Shown here: positions 4,988-12,779 of the stretch, one piece after another
Position numbering within the stretch: the first letter of the stretch is position 1
How the letters are laid out: each line of letters starts with the position of its first letter
Source of the DNA: a virus
Length of the DNA stretch: 44,577 bases
Virus record (IMG/VR): IMGVR_UViG_3300047548_001888
Span: 1 to 44,577 of that record
Direction: 5' to 3' (one strand)
Made by a program: the position numbers and the translations under genes
The notes under the pieces: model-generated
The model's database searches: none
What the model was told of the DNA's origin: nothing
The model's input: only the letters and a program-made list of their open reading frames with translations

Positions 4988-5653
4988 ATGATTTATAATC
5001 ACTGCCCACCTAAACAATTACCAAATTTAATTTCTGAAACACAATCAAACGGTACCAGATTTTACGTAACACCGAACGGTATTAAGTTACCATCTGTCAC
5101 AACAGTGGTTGGTGCCAAGAAAAAAAAGTCCATCATGGAATGGCGTAATCGTGTAGGTGAGCAGGAAGCAAATCGCATTTCAAAGTTAGCCACTGGTCGT
5201 GGTAATCGTGTACATGACTTAGCTGAGAGGTATCTAAAGAACGAAAAGATAGACTGGCAAAGAGAAATGCCAGATTCTGTTATGATGTTTCGTTCTTTGA
5301 TACCTCTCATGTTGAATATCAATAACATACATTACATTGAACAAGCATTGTGGTCTGAGAAAGTTGGTCTAGCTGGTCGCGTAGACTTGATTGCTGAATG
5401 GAACGGTGTTCTTTCTGTTATTGACTTCAAAACATCGAAAAGAATTAAACAAAAGGAAGATATTCCGGAATATTTTGCACAATGTACTGCATATGCTGCA
5501 ATGTATGAGGAACTTGTTGGTTCACCAATAGACCAATTAGTTGTGGTGATGGCGGTTGAAGATGAAAAACCTATCGTTTTTGTTGAAAAAACTGAAGATC
5601 ACCTAGAAAATCTGGTGGAACATATAGATTTTTACCATAAAAGTGTTGCATAA
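4988..5653 (+). CDS. PD-(D/E)XK exonuclease (RecB/Cas4-like)
   Basis: This 221-aa nuclease has the PD-(D/E)XK core in order: RGNRVHDLAERYL near residue 75 (conserved His), GLAGRVDLIAEW (catalytic Asp), VIDFKTSKR (the D-x-K element) and QCTAYAAMYEE (QxxxY helix). This is the RecB/Cas4 exonuclease set. T4-like phages of aquatic hosts carry such an exonuclease near phoH, presumably for DNA processing or host DNA degradation. There is no Cys cluster for the iron-sulphur site found in Cas4. Confidence 0.8.
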   Translation: MIYNHCPPKQLPNLISETQSNGTRFYVTPNGIKLPSVTTVVGAKKKKSIMEWRNRVGEQEANRISKLATGRGNRVHDLAERYLKNEKIDWQREMPDSVMMFRSLIPLMLNINNIHYIEQALWSEKVGLAGRVDLIAEWNGVLSVIDFKTSKRIKQKEDIPEYFAQCTAYAAMYEELVGSPIDQLVVVMAVEDEKPIVFVEKTEDHLENLVEHIDFYHKSVA

Positions 5654-9644: not shown

Positions 9645-9694
9645 TTATGGTTGTACGAAGCAACTAGAAAAATGTTCTGGACGCGGGTTCGATT
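9645..9694 (+). pseudogene. ssrA: Truncated tmRNA acceptor piece (5' part only)
   Basis: These 50 bases align without gaps to 10818-10867, the 5' part of the intact acceptor piece, with 36 identical positions by hand count. The conserved block is GGACG followed by G-GTTCGATT, the T-stem and T-loop of a tmRNA tRNA-like domain. The match stops at the T-loop: the 3' T-stem, acceptor strand and CCA are missing. The next bases are the end of the minus-strand HNH gene, whose stop codon (9693-9695) overlaps the T-loop. The 5' end coincides with the predicted start of the promoter at 9611-9639. It is best read as the displaced 5' half of the original acceptor piece. Confidence 0.75.
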
Positions 9695-10193
9695 AAGCCT
9701 GTTTTACCATGAAACCACCATGTGTCTTATTACCTCGTAATGACGCATTGGCAAAGGCATTAGCATTGTATCCGCGATCCATACACCACTGACGCAACCC
9801 TTCTACTCGCTCAACGGTTCCGTCTGGATGAGTAACATCATAAACCTTCCCAGTCCAAGTTTTACCCCTTGCTTGTCTCGCACTCTTGTATTTCTGGTGT
9901 AGTTCGGCGGCTCTTTCAGCACCGAAGATTTCTTCCCATTTCTTGCCCTTACGCTGTCTGATGTTTGTTTGTCCACCTTTTCTACTACCAGCCATGATTG
10001 CTTCCTTAGCGGCATCAAAGTTAGCATCAAGTTGGGCAAGTCCTTGCCAAGCAACATAATCCTGCCAATGCCCATGTTGTTCATACAATAAACGATGTGC
10101 TTCGGCATGTTCGCCCGGTGTTAGTTCGATGAGGTTGCTTGGATCGTCTGAACCGCCCATGTGTTTTGGGATAATATGATGTTTGTGTCTCAT
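9693..10193 (-). CDS. HNH homing endonuclease inserted at the tmRNA T-loop
   Basis: I choose the ATG at 10193, giving a 166-aa protein that opens directly with the HNH motif (MRHKHHIIPKHMGG, DDPSNLIELTPGEHAEAHRLLYE). A longer frame reaches 10244 but runs into the opposing promoter. Middle residues are basic. The C-terminal 50 residues (TGKVYDVTHPDGTVE, LRQWCMDRGYN, GGFMVKQ) match the NUMOD/IENR-type DNA-binding repeat of homing endonucleases. The gene points against all its neighbours, and its 3' end sits exactly on the truncated tmRNA T-loop. It is probably a selfish gene that uses the tmRNA as its target. No Shine-Dalgarno site is visible. Confidence 0.85.
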   Translation of the reverse strand: MRHKHHIIPKHMGGSDDPSNLIELTPGEHAEAHRLLYEQHGHWQDYVAWQGLAQLDANFDAAKEAIMAGSRKGGQTNIRQRKGKKWEEIFGAERAAELHQKYKSARQARGKTWTGKVYDVTHPDGTVERVEGLRQWCMDRGYNANAFANASLRGNKTHGGFMVKQA

Positions 10194-10225
10194 ACTATTA
10201 TTTAGTCGAAACCATAGAAAAACGC

Positions 10226-10254
10226 TTGACAAAGGTTTCGACAAGTGTTATACT
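10226..10254 (+). promoter_or_regulatory. Sigma70 promoter for the 10278-10810 genes
   Basis: TTGACA (10226-10231), a 17-base spacer and TATACT (10249-10254) form a near-consensus promoter 24 bases before the 10278 start. It overlaps the 5' upstream region of the opposing HNH gene. Transcripts could continue through both small genes into the tmRNA. Confidence 0.75.
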
Positions 10255-10277: not shown

Positions 10278-10589
10278 ATGATTGACTATTATGAAGCCTT
10301 GAGAGAAATGCACCGTGGCAATGTTGTAAAGTATGTGGGCACAGTGAATGGCAATGTAATGAGTGACAATGGTGCCAGTTTCTGTATGTGTCGCGGGTGT
10401 ATATTTCTCTTTGACCGCGGAGAAATCAAATGGAACAAGTTAGGCTACATGGTCTATGACCCAGACTTTCGTTACGAACTAACTGGCGAAACAGTTGACC
10501 CGAGGGCATGGAAGCCAGAGAAGAACAGAGACCGTAAAGAGATTAAATCAAAGTTGGGTTATAGTCGTGTAGGATTGGGGAATGTATGA
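10278..10589 (+). CDS. Small conserved phage protein, paralogue of the 132-440 gene
   Basis: This 103-aa protein shares the full-length plan of the 132-440 product: MIDYYEALREMHRGNVVKYVGTVNG opens both with few changes, and YDPDFRYELTGETVD and KSKLGYSRVGLGN recur near the end. It has its own near-consensus promoter and a GGAG site. It overlaps the next start (ATGA). Function is unknown. A distant similarity in layout to DUF2829/Tad2-type proteins is speculative. Its presence inside the HNH-flanked interval makes it possible cargo. Confidence 0.75.
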   Translation: MIDYYEALREMHRGNVVKYVGTVNGNVMSDNGASFCMCRGCIFLFDRGEIKWNKLGYMVYDPDFRYELTGETVDPRAWKPEKNRDRKEIKSKLGYSRVGLGNV

Positions 10590-10810
10590 ACGAACGAATT
10601 AAAGAACTTGCGAGAGAGGCTGGTCTTCTGGTATATAATCCTGAAGGTGCCCCAACTAAGTTAGAAAAGTTCGCCGAGTTGATTGTTAGAGAATGTATCG
10701 GTTGTTGTGAGCAAGTGATTAGCGATCCTGTTCCCGAATCGGTAGATACTTGGTTGAATGGTGGTGAACAATGTATCCAAGAAATTAAACAACACTTTGG
10801 AGTAGAATAA
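10586..10810 (+). CDS. Small MNER-family protein
   Basis: This 74-aa protein begins MNERIKELAREAGLL, has EKFAELIVRECIGCC in the middle and ends IKQHFGVE. It is a shorter paralogue of the 1226-1486 product and shares its N-terminal module with the 615-998 product. It is coupled by ATGA to the gene before it. Its last codons border the late-promoter-like motif that precedes the intact acceptor piece. Function unknown. Confidence 0.7.
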   Translation: MNERIKELAREAGLLVYNPEGAPTKLEKFAELIVRECIGCCEQVISDPVPESVDTWLNGGEQCIQEIKQHFGVE

Positions 10811-10813
10811 ATA
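10806..10813 (+). promoter_or_regulatory. Possible late promoter at the tmRNA acceptor piece (AATAAATA)
   Basis: AATAAATA straddles the stop codon of the preceding gene. With T4-type spacing, transcription would begin near 10819, within a base or two of the 5' end of the acceptor piece at 10818. The first base differs from the T4 consensus TATAAATA, so this is a moderate match supported by position. Confidence 0.4.
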
Positions 10814-10817
10814 AGAG

Positions 10818-10883
10818 TTATTGCTGTATGAAGTGAAGTGAAACAGGTCTTGGACGGGAGTTCGATTCTCCCCACCTCCACCA
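10818..10883 (+). ncRNA. ssrA: tmRNA acceptor piece (3' half of a permuted tmRNA)
   Basis: This is the alanine-accepting half of a two-piece tmRNA. T-stem GGGAG (10856-10860), T-loop TTCGATT (10861-10867) and CTCCC (10868-10872) are perfect. They are followed by the acceptor strand CACCTCC (10873-10879), discriminator A and an encoded CCA (10881-10883). CACCTCC pairs over seven positions (one G-U) with GGGGGTG at 10971-10977, the 5' end of the coding piece, which lies downstream, so the gene is circularly permuted. TGCTGT (10822-10827) pairs with ACAGCA (11012-11017) of the coding piece, consistent with helix P2. The 5' end at 10818 is set by alignment to the truncated copy. Confidence 0.88.
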
Positions 10884-10970
10884 AAAGAACACACATCGCT
10901 ACTCACCTGAAATAGTGCGATGGTACAGATGATAGTGGTGAAGTAATATCTGCTTATGTGTGCTTTTGAT
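10884..10970 (+). other. Intervening transcribed spacer of the permuted tmRNA precursor
   Basis: This 87-base spacer is removed to yield two mature pieces. Its ends pair: CAAAAG (10882-10887) with CTTTTG (10963-10968) and CACACAT (10890-10896) with ATGTGTG (10956-10962), with a two-base bulge. The helix extends the acceptor stem of the precursor. A smaller internal hairpin (TCGC with GCGA plus ACT with AGT) is visible inside. Such a fold would place the CCA end and the 5' G run for processing by tRNA-type nucleases. Confidence 0.75.
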
Positions 10971-11150
10971 GGGGGTGACTGGTTTCGACAGGGCAAAGAG
11001 TAACAGAGTGGACAGCACGGTAGGCGATGACCGTAAATCAAGCAAATCAAGTAAACGCAGCTAATGATAGCCGCTTCGCTCTTGCCGCTTAAACGGTAAT
11101 CGAATGGGGATTTGTAGATTGTTCCTTATTAACCAAACAATCTACCATTT
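10971..11150 (+). ncRNA. ssrA: tmRNA coding piece with tag AANDSRFALAA
   Basis: This half carries the D-domain and the proteolysis tag used for ribosome rescue. It opens GGGGGTGACTGGTTTCGACA, the hallmark 5' end of tmRNA. CGGT (11018-11021) and ACCG (11030-11033) form a hairpin in the position of the pre-tag pseudoknot. The resume codon is most likely GCA at 11057, preceded by TAAAC as in UAGUC of E. coli. The tag reads AANDSRFALAA and stops at TAA 11090-11092. A ten-base hairpin, GTAGATTGTT (11114-11123) with AACAATCTAC (11136-11145), closes the 3' end. The exact 3' terminus is uncertain. No U-run follows, so read-through into the endolysin is likely. Confidence 0.88.
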
Positions 11151-11165
11151 CAAGAAAGGAAAAAT

Positions 11166-11723
11166 ATGCGAAGTAAACCAATACTTTTCAGCATAGTTTT
11201 TTCCGCAGCAGTGATATCTTTGGGTATGATTAATGTTGATCTACATGGTTTGTTACCCTTCAAAACATCTTATAACAATCTTTCAAAAGATGTGCAAAAA
11301 CAAGTCACATGCCTTGCGGAAAATATTTACTTTGAGGCCGCACATGAGCCACTTTCTGGAAAAAAAGCAGTAGCGTTTGTAACATTGAACCGTCTGCAAT
11401 CTGGAAACTATGCTAATACAATTTGTGATGTGGTCTTTCAAAAGACCAACGGTGTTTGCCAATTCTCTTGGTATTGCGATTCAAATATACTGAAGAAGAG
11501 GTTGACAATACGTGACACTATGCTTTATAATGAGATTCGTGAGTTGGCAACAAACATAGTTGTAAACTTCGAACGCATGAAGGATGTTACCGATGGTGCA
11601 ACCTACTATCATGCGGATTATGTGAATCCTGGTTGGAAACTAAAGAAAATTGACCAAATTGGTCGACATATTTTCTATAGAAGCCATAAGGATAATATTG
11701 ACAGAAACAAGGAAATTATATGA
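11166..11723 (+). CDS. SleB-type cell wall hydrolase (endolysin) with N-terminal membrane anchor
   Basis: This 185-aa protein has a hydrophobic N-terminal segment at residues 6-24 that could be a signal anchor. The SleB/Hydrolase_2 domain follows: LAENIYFEAAHE (catalytic Glu), KKAVAFVTLNRLQSG, TICDVVFQ, GVCQFSW, ATYYHADYVNPGW and IGRHIFYR. SleB enzymes cut peptidoglycan glycan strands. The anchor suggests a Sec-delivered or signal-arrest-release endolysin that does not strictly need a holin. AAGGA precedes the ATG. The gene starts about 15 bases after the tmRNA and overlaps the next gene by four bases. Confidence 0.88.
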   Translation: MRSKPILFSIVFSAAVISLGMINVDLHGLLPFKTSYNNLSKDVQKQVTCLAENIYFEAAHEPLSGKKAVAFVTLNRLQSGNYANTICDVVFQKTNGVCQFSWYCDSNILKKRLTIRDTMLYNEIRELATNIVVNFERMKDVTDGATYYHADYVNPGWKLKKIDQIGRHIFYRSHKDNIDRNKEII

Positions 11724-11953
11724 GTGAAGCTAAAAACCAAAATACTTTGATTACAATTATACTTTGTACCACTATTGTAATTGGTTCAACCGTTATTGGT
11801 GCATTTCTGTACAACATCAATGATCGTAATAACATGGCAAAAAACATCGAGGCAGCTATTCAAAAAGGTGTTGATCCACTTTCTGTCAAGTGTTCTTACG
11901 AAATGAGCCCAACTTCTACCTGCATTGCATACGCAATGGCGACCAAAAAATAA
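11720..11953 (+). CDS. Small single-span membrane protein in the lysis cassette
   Basis: This 77-aa protein has one clear membrane helix (residues 9-31, TLITIILCTTIVIGSTVIGAF) after a short polar N-terminus. Its C-terminal domain is soluble, with two Cys in KCSYEMSPTSTC. It starts in an ATGA overlap with the endolysin. Topology and position fit a pinholin, an i-spanin-like protein or an endolysin regulator. It resembles none closely enough to choose. Confidence 0.6.
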   Translation: MSEAKNQNTLITIILCTTIVIGSTVIGAFLYNINDRNNMAKNIEAAIQKGVDPLSVKCSYEMSPTSTCIAYAMATKK

Positions 11954-12177
11954 TGCCTACGAAAGATGAAATGAGAGATTTCAGTGCCATCATTGAAAAG
12001 TTGGCACTAGAAAAAGCAATAAGTCTAATGGACGCGGTGGTACTACACTGCGAACAAATTGGTTTTGAAGTTGAATTGGCTGCTTCCCTTTTAACACCAC
12101 CAATCAAAGCTAAAATTGGTGAAGAGGCGCAAGCACTAAACTTAATGAAAAAGAAAGTAAATAAATTGCCACTATGA
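11953..12177 (+). CDS. 33: gp33-like late transcription co-activator
   Basis: This 74-aa protein uses the ATG at 11953, overlapping the previous stop by one base; an earlier ATG lies inside the membrane-protein gene and is unlikely. The core FSAIIEKLALEKAISLMDAVVLHCEQ, split by a turn from FEVELAASLLTPPIKAKIGEEAQALNL, matches the conserved part of T4 gp33 (EKMVEEFGMSYLEA..., IIEKIQSEA..NLL). gp33 tethers RNA polymerase to the sliding clamp for late transcription. The protein is shorter than T4 gp33 (112 aa), as expected for aquatic T4-like phages. Its position before gp59 supports the call. Confidence 0.75.
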   Translation: MPTKDEMRDFSAIIEKLALEKAISLMDAVVLHCEQIGFEVELAASLLTPPIKAKIGEEAQALNLMKKKVNKLPL

Positions 12178-12779
12178 ACGAAGCCGGTGGATTTGAAGCC
12201 TATGCAATGTACCATGGATTAAAGTTACATTTCTCAGGCAACTATGATTATGTGAAATATAACGGCAAAACAAATGTGACCAAAGAGCAATTCATGCTTC
12301 GAAAGGATAAATTTTCTTATTATAAATTATCCAGAAAATACAAGCGTGAAGAATTGTTTGGTTTCTATGTGGCAAACTTTCTTAAAAATCCTAAAATTTG
12401 GGTCGGCGATCTTCTAATGGAAGATGCTGAATCAGAATACAAACTGTGGCTTCGTGTTCAACAATCACTGTCTTATATCTTTGAACAAAATTTGGATTAC
12501 CTATTCGACCAGGTAAATGCTCCAGATGAATTGTTAAAAGTTATTGACGGGCAATATCCGTTGTTGTATAATTATCTAACACAGGATAAAATCTATCTTG
12601 AAACGGTAGTAATACTTGACGATATTATGAATTTTATTCCTATGTGGAGTAAAAAAGTTGATGATGATATCATTTTCCCCGACTTCATAAAAAAATGCCA
12701 AAAGTATAAACCATTTTTAAATTATGATAAAGTGAAAATGAAAAAAATATTGAAAGAGAAATTATGTCAGTTAGCGTGA
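12174..12779 (+). CDS. 59: gp59-like helicase loader
   Basis: This 201-aa protein is close to the 217 residues of T4 gp59, which loads the gp41 helicase onto gp32-coated forks. Visible matches are the N-terminal K.HF.GNYD..KYNGK, the FMLRKDKFSYYKLSRKYK segment (T4 has YQKRRDKYFFQKLSEKYK), the FYVANFLKNPKIWVGD segment (T4 FISNLVANQDAWIGD) and the ETVVILDDIMNFI helix. It overlaps gp33 by four bases and the nucleotidase by 16, and lies just before gp32, its binding partner. Confidence 0.88.
   Translation: MNEAGGFEAYAMYHGLKLHFSGNYDYVKYNGKTNVTKEQFMLRKDKFSYYKLSRKYKREELFGFYVANFLKNPKIWVGDLLMEDAESEYKLWLRVQQSLSYIFEQNLDYLFDQVNAPDELLKVIDGQYPLLYNYLTQDKIYLETVVILDDIMNFIPMWSKKVDDDIIFPDFIKKCQKYKPFLNYDKVKMKKILKEKLCQLA

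Follow-up and report, generated by a model that had tools for sequence, protein, structure and literature searches.

A T4-like phage with a circularly permuted tmRNA gene in two pieces, of betaproteobacterial type

Introduction

tmRNA is the RNA that frees stalled ribosomes. An original prediction, made by inspecting the letters of a viral DNA, placed a circularly permuted tmRNA gene in two pieces in what seemed to be a T4-like phage. The DNA is one IMG/VR virus record of 44,577 bases, possibly a fragment, and is called the window here. The locus raises the question of whether this gene is intact and in use, and if so, what a phage would gain from it. To our knowledge, trans-translation during lytic infection has been little studied.

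Structure of the gene

A permuted tmRNA is found at 10822-11092 of the window by both ARAGORN and Rfam. The ARAGORN call extends over 10791-11183, gives the tag as AANDSRFALAA with its coding part at 11057-11092, and is the only tRNA or tmRNA that the program reports in the 44,577 bases. The 3' tRNA-like half, with the T-arm, the acceptor strand and the CCA, is encoded upstream of the 5' half that bears the tag, both on the plus strand.

The acceptor piece (10822-10883) is delimited by the RF04321 and RF01850 alignments, by ARAGORN and by the sequence. It consists of the 5' strand of helix P2 (TGCTGT, 10822-10827), the T-arm (GGGAG-TTCGATT-CTCCC, 10856-10872), the 3' acceptor strand (CACCTCC, 10873-10879) and an encoded ACCA (10880-10883), which closes the piece with CCA at 10883. 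The coding piece (10971-11150, from the same two alignments and the sequence) opens with the 5' acceptor strand (GGGGGTG, 10971-10977), followed by a D-loop-like TGGTTTCGAC (10980-10989), the 3' strand of P2 (ACAGCA, 11012-11017), the tag reading frame and a 3' hairpin (11114-11122 with 11137-11145). The predicted 3' limit of this piece is probably near 11146, where the hairpin closes. The tag frame called by ARAGORN (GCAGCTAATGATAGCCGCTTCGCTCTTGCCGCTTAA, 11057-11092) starts at an alanine resume codon, GCA at 11057, and ends in a hydrophobic-Ala-Ala degron and a TAA stop codon.

The two acceptor strands pair at 7/7 positions. G3-U70, which marks tRNA-Ala and tmRNA for alanine, is their sole wobble. 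P2, which joins the halves, is paired at 6/6. The T-arm, the acceptor strand, the CCA at 10883, the coding start at 10971, the seven acceptor pairs with one G-U and the P2 helix had all been named in the original prediction, and each was confirmed in its place. The spacing from the acceptor strand to the D-loop is one base shorter in the window than in most relatives, a few of which have the same spacing.

Minimum-energy co-folding of the two tRNA-like strands gives a z-score of about 0, no better than shuffles. Because this energy is uninformative, the evidence for the structure is provided by covariance models and by covariation among relatives rather than by folding energy.

The window matches RF04321 (tmRNA_permuted) at full length with 121.1 bits (E 2.9e-23; cut-off 47) and RF01850 (beta_tmRNA), also at full length, with 100.6 bits (E 1.4e-29; cut-off 84). 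The alpha model (34.7 bits, cut-off 50) and the cyano model (41.9 bits, cut-off 70) both stay under their cut-offs, and the window tmRNA is therefore assigned to the betaproteobacterial type. These searches and the ARAGORN run had been proposed as a check of the circularly permuted two-piece tmRNA, and they bear it out. Among 45 phage records compared, 39 passed the beta cut-off, the beta model outscored the alpha model in 44, and no record passed the cyano cut-off.

Relatives among phages

To collect relatives, 2.9 million viral contigs were scanned twice with exact patterns, and a further scan used the hydrolase encoded downstream of the tmRNA; the locus set also takes in the window and two cultured phages. 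A 7/7 acceptor stem, a T-stem and the tmRNA signature were found together at 64 phage loci (63 excluding the window), 55 of them distinct. The first scan gave 26 contigs, in 24 of which ARAGORN called a permuted tmRNA, with varied tags; in most of these contigs the neighbours are homologues of the window exonuclease, SleB hydrolase, gp33, gp59, deoxyribonucleotidase or gp32. A blastn search of INPHARED with the window tmRNA gave no match because the tmRNA sequence is too diverged, and the two cultured phages were reached through L010, a relative that scores higher against the beta model. Among 12 good matches to the SleB hydrolase with at least 4 kb upstream, a full tmRNA is present in 8, two of which look like copies of one phage. 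The tmRNA is common, though not universal, among these phages.

Some loci are unusual in other ways. The permuted tmRNA of L055 (3834-4061) has intact stems and a T-loop, GGCAGTG, near the alpha consensus loop; the SleB of this phage is 76% identical to that of the window. A large phage genome, the L119 record of 349,369 bases, has a permuted tmRNA at 341179-341502 (112 bits with RF04321). ARAGORN also reports tRNA-Pyl (cta) in L097 (12247-12322) and L109 (9750-9824), possibly phage amber-suppressor tRNAs.

The acceptor stems vary on both strands by paired changes that leave G3-U70 in place, as GGGGGTG/CACCTCC, GGGGATG/CATCTCC, GGGCCTG/CAGGTCC, GGGCCAG/CTGGTCC and GGGCTTG/CAAGTCC. These sets were prefiltered for pairing, and the larger one also for G3-U70, so they describe the variety of the stem and are no unbiased test of it. 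A test independent of the pairing filter is provided, for P2 and for the stem of the intervening sequence, by swapping strands between loci. The cognate P2 helix scores 5.71 against 5.26 +/- 0.10 for swapped strands and exceeds all 300 swaps, indicating covariation between phages.

Position 18 of the D-loop and position 55 of the T-loop sit on separate mature pieces, yet they change jointly in phage loci, as G18-U55 or A18-G55 (L061, L063, L064, L072, L087, L126 and most of L156-L234). This change was considered as a new feature and rejected, since the alpha_tmRNA consensus already has A18-G55; in L063 and L072, though, that alpha combination is found on beta-type bodies.

Tag ends are kept in the phage relatives while their codons vary. 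An Ala-Ala end is present in 50 of 52 phage tags, and differences in the last four tag codons are mostly synonymous (2631 against 1030, counted pairwise). Ends other than ALAA also occur, namely LMVA, RMVA, LMAA and AVAA (L060, L026, L064, L039 and others), and may change the choice of protease. Two loci, L024 and L116, have very long tags of about 28 and 31 amino acids, with a common stretch ADT(I/F)DFSAMSFTGN(S/T)V(S/R)G before the terminal ALAA.

The tag bears on the idea that the phage RNA is a decoy, which would tie up SmpB, alanyl-tRNA synthetase or ribosomes of the host and so inhibit its trans-translation. A precedent can be found in phage DS6A, whose tag-less tmRNA is reported to inhibit the endogenous tmRNA upon expression in E. 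coli (PMC11915505). The apparent lack of a phage SmpB would also fit: none was detected in 20 phage records, including the window, by a search that gave a detection in 10 of 14 control genomes, though the records may be fragments. It is possible that a phage smpB has gone unseen, as the window and the IMG/VR records may be incomplete. A decoy, however, would need no tag, whereas the window frame is intact and ends in ALAA-stop, and in most relatives the tag is complete, its end conserved though the codons vary. Because the tag is intact the decoy reading is weakened, and we consider it improbable.

The intervening sequence

The two pieces are separated by an intervening sequence of 87 nt (10884-10970, plus strand), which is expected to be cut out. 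Its ends are paired, AAAG (10884-10887) with CTTT and CACACAT (10890-10896) with ATGTGTG (10956-10962), and its last four letters are TGAT. Folded jointly with the acceptor strands it reaches -38.8 kcal/mol (z -4.3), with 0/200 shuffles as good. The stability of the intervening sequence alone is no better than that of shuffles (z -1.2); the gain is seen only together with the acceptor strands.

The terminal stem covaries over 52 phage intervening sequences, with a mean of 9.82 for the cognate helix against 5.68 +/- 0.21 for swapped strands, again above all 300 swaps. TGAT stands directly before the coding piece in 48 of 55 intervening sequences. Their length is mostly 49-98 nt in the phage relatives, compared with 24-49 nt in the bacterial examples examined.

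Those of L072 (171 nt) and L086 (194 nt) are unusually long. Stretches resembling tRNA T-arms (of the GGTTCGAATCC type) occur in L009 and L079, which may mean that tRNA fragments gave rise to some of the intervening sequences.

Genomic context

The window encodes gp32 (PF08804), gp59, gp33, baseplate, tail tube and DNA-end protector proteins, and because of these it is taken to be a T4-like phage, as the original prediction had held. The closest relatives of its gp32 among isolates are cyanophages. The tmRNA sits between an exonuclease (4988-5653; phrog_298, E 9.5e-71) on one side and, on the other, a gp33-like late-transcription coactivator (11890-12177; PF16805, E 1.3e-14; phrog_254), the gp59 helicase loader (12174-12779; PF08993, PF08994; phrog_269, E 6.3e-55) and gp32; the three genes with coordinates here are on the plus strand. 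This is the site seen in the methylophage Melnitz, with extra genes inserted. The exonuclease also lies upstream of the tmRNA in relatives and in Melnitz, and in the window about 5 kb of extra genes come between the two. An HNH homing endonuclease is encoded within this stretch, near the tmRNA (9693-10244, minus strand).

tmRNA genes are often targets of integration, and fragments of ssrA occur in prophages (PMC9004378). The window gene could thus be imagined as a captured host gene or a functionless remnant of an attachment site, borne on an integrating element. Both of its pieces are complete, however; T4-like replication and tail genes surround it, no integrase was found among the scanned proteins (a subset of the window ORFs), and structure and tag are conserved at one site over many divergent phages. 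Such an origin is very improbable. The window gene is neither a chance occurrence nor a stray insertion.

The consensus promoter nearest to the window tmRNA lies upstream of two small ORFs, and none lies directly upstream of the tmRNA itself. It is of the sigma70 type, TTGACA-N17-TATACT with TG before the -10 element (10226-10254, plus strand; 11/12 consensus match). The ORFs, of 103 aa (10278-10589) and 74 aa (10586-10810), lie on the plus strand between this promoter and the tmRNA, the second ending 11 nt before the P2 strand; neither has a Pfam or PHROG match. The sequence at 10226-10254 is a candidate promoter for a unit of ORF103, ORF74 and the tmRNA. Of 54 phage relatives (L061 left out of the count), 15 (28%) have a promoter of at least 10/12 match no more than about 80 nt before the tmRNA, against 2.5% of control windows.

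Directly downstream of the tmRNA is a SleB-type cell wall hydrolase (Hydrolase_2, PHROG endolysin; 11166-11723, plus strand), which is a neighbour in many relatives. In the window it begins 16 nt past 11150, and in Melnitz a glutamine riboswitch is found between the tmRNA and gp33 (PMC9004378). The RNA might on these grounds serve chiefly as a cis-regulatory leader for a downstream operon of lysis and late genes (SleB hydrolase, gp33), and only secondarily as a tmRNA. Yet the window has no riboswitch even at a loose threshold, SleB is at least 1 kilobase from the tmRNA in several relatives, and the tag and the tRNA-like parts are conserved on their own. We give a leader role as little credence as a functionless remnant.

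A possible host source

When about 85,000 bacterial and archaeal genomes were scanned with exact patterns, none showed the window acceptor sequence together with an intervening sequence of 70-100 nt, and just six copies of the same acceptor pattern had one of 20-49 nt; no host copy was therefore identified. Among 399 genomes sampled from the order to which one Herbaspirillum genome belongs, three of 1.9-2.3 Mb gave the best DNA matches, at loci of 40-45% G+C, the best being 83% over 85 nt. These nearest matches point to a freshwater member of that order with a small genome, but fall short of a host assignment.

Proposed function

The gene anatomy is complete, and pairing, tag end and genomic site are conserved across related phages. 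The gene is on this basis very probably an intact, working phage tmRNA, served by the SmpB, alanyl-tRNA synthetase and processing enzymes of the host. Since no phage SmpB was found, host SmpB would be needed, and trans-translation would most likely proceed with host proteins.

The steps from processing to tagging can be inferred from known tmRNA biology. The precursor would be transcribed by host RNA polymerase, and the stem of the intervening sequence would stack on the acceptor stem, so that the two processing sites come close to each other. Cleavage by host RNase P would start the coding piece at 10971, and the CCA at 10883 would be freed by the host nucleases that process tRNA 3' ends. The two pieces would then be held together by the acceptor stem and P2. 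Charged by host alanyl-tRNA synthetase via the G3-U70 pair, the RNA would be delivered by host SmpB and EF-Tu to ribosomes stalled on broken mRNA. Translation would switch to the GCA at 11057 and add AANDSRFALAA, whose ALAA end would direct the tagged protein to ClpXP-type proteases.

The most likely benefit would be that ribosome recycling is sustained while infection destroys host DNA and mRNA, with amino-acid recovery perhaps an extra one. Such a rescue role of phage tmRNA is plausible. A conserved phage tmRNA with its own tags, seen without a phage SmpB, suggests either that ribosome rescue runs low in infected cells or that the choice of tag lies with the phage.

A wider reading concerns the site itself. 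The position between exonuclease and gp33 in aquatic T4-like phages may be kept for a two-piece tmRNA, the RNA installed there being exchanged between host lineages: Melnitz has an alpha type and a glutamine riboswitch, the window a beta type, and in mixed forms a beta-type body bears an alpha-like D-loop/T-loop contact. We hold this tentatively, at slightly less than an even chance. If true, phage tmRNA would be an exchangeable part of translation, matched to the host and with tags of its own, and not a chance capture.

Comparison with known two-piece tmRNAs

A two-piece tmRNA has been described in the T4-like methylophage Melnitz, in a paper that counts 53 two-piece forms among 133 unique tmRNA structures from 402 tmRNA-bearing phages, 50 of the 53 coming from marine or aquatic phages (PMC9004378). 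The tmRNA database paper holds 79 unique bacteriophage tmRNA sequences (PMC11915505). The original prediction had thought a permuted copy uncommon in T4-like phages; Melnitz, the 53 structures (PMC9004378) and the 63 further loci found here speak against that view.

Melnitz (Methylophilales phage EXVC044M, MZ577097, 2022) and the window are both T4-like and have a two-piece tmRNA with a complete tag. They share the gene order PhoH, exonuclease, tmRNA, gp33, gp59 and gp32, with protein identities of 33-56%, and in both the ends of the intervening sequence pair and its last letters are TGAT. The Melnitz tmRNA, however, scores 106.7 bits with alpha_tmRNA and has an alpha-type T-loop, whereas the window copy is of the beta type. 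Melnitz has the glutamine riboswitch just downstream of the tmRNA, before gp33, and the window has none; unlike in Melnitz, SleB stands between tmRNA and gp33 in the window.

The betaproteobacterial permuted tmRNAs of RF01850 resemble the window in gene order, D-loop and T-loop sequences, P2 and the core of the coding piece. The window tag pattern is close to their ANDERFALAA, and several bacterial examples also have an intervening sequence ending in TGAT. The window differs in its longer intervening sequence (87 nt against 24-49 nt) and in the absence of the terminator-like 3' hairpin of the model. To RF04321 (PMC11915505) it is a full-length match, with only ordinary sequence divergence.

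Two cultured phages carry permuted tmRNAs that are unannotated in their records. In Alcaligenes phage vB_Af_QDWS595, a member of the Schitoviridae (OK149171, 55063-55316, minus strand; L135, 1374-1627), a beta-type copy lies within a run of tRNA genes and scores 111 bits with RF04321 and 93.8 with RF01850. In Stenotrophomonas phage BUCTxx99 (OR529408, 98615-98817, plus strand; L134, 2987-3189) the scores are 100 and 81.3 bits, the latter just under the cut-off; in this phage of a gammaproteobacterium just 4 nt separate the encoded CCA from the coding piece. Both share the beta-type permuted tmRNA with the window and differ in being other phages, with the tmRNA near tRNA genes.

The phage two-piece tmRNA is already known as a kind, and Melnitz holds one at the same syntenic site. 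The new points are that the beta type occupies this site, how frequent it is among aquatic T4-like phages, and the unannotated copies in Alcaligenes and Stenotrophomonas phages; for the first two, no description was found in the open-licence literature, which leaves novelty unproven. The copies in the two cultured phages make the role of phage tmRNA testable in the laboratory.
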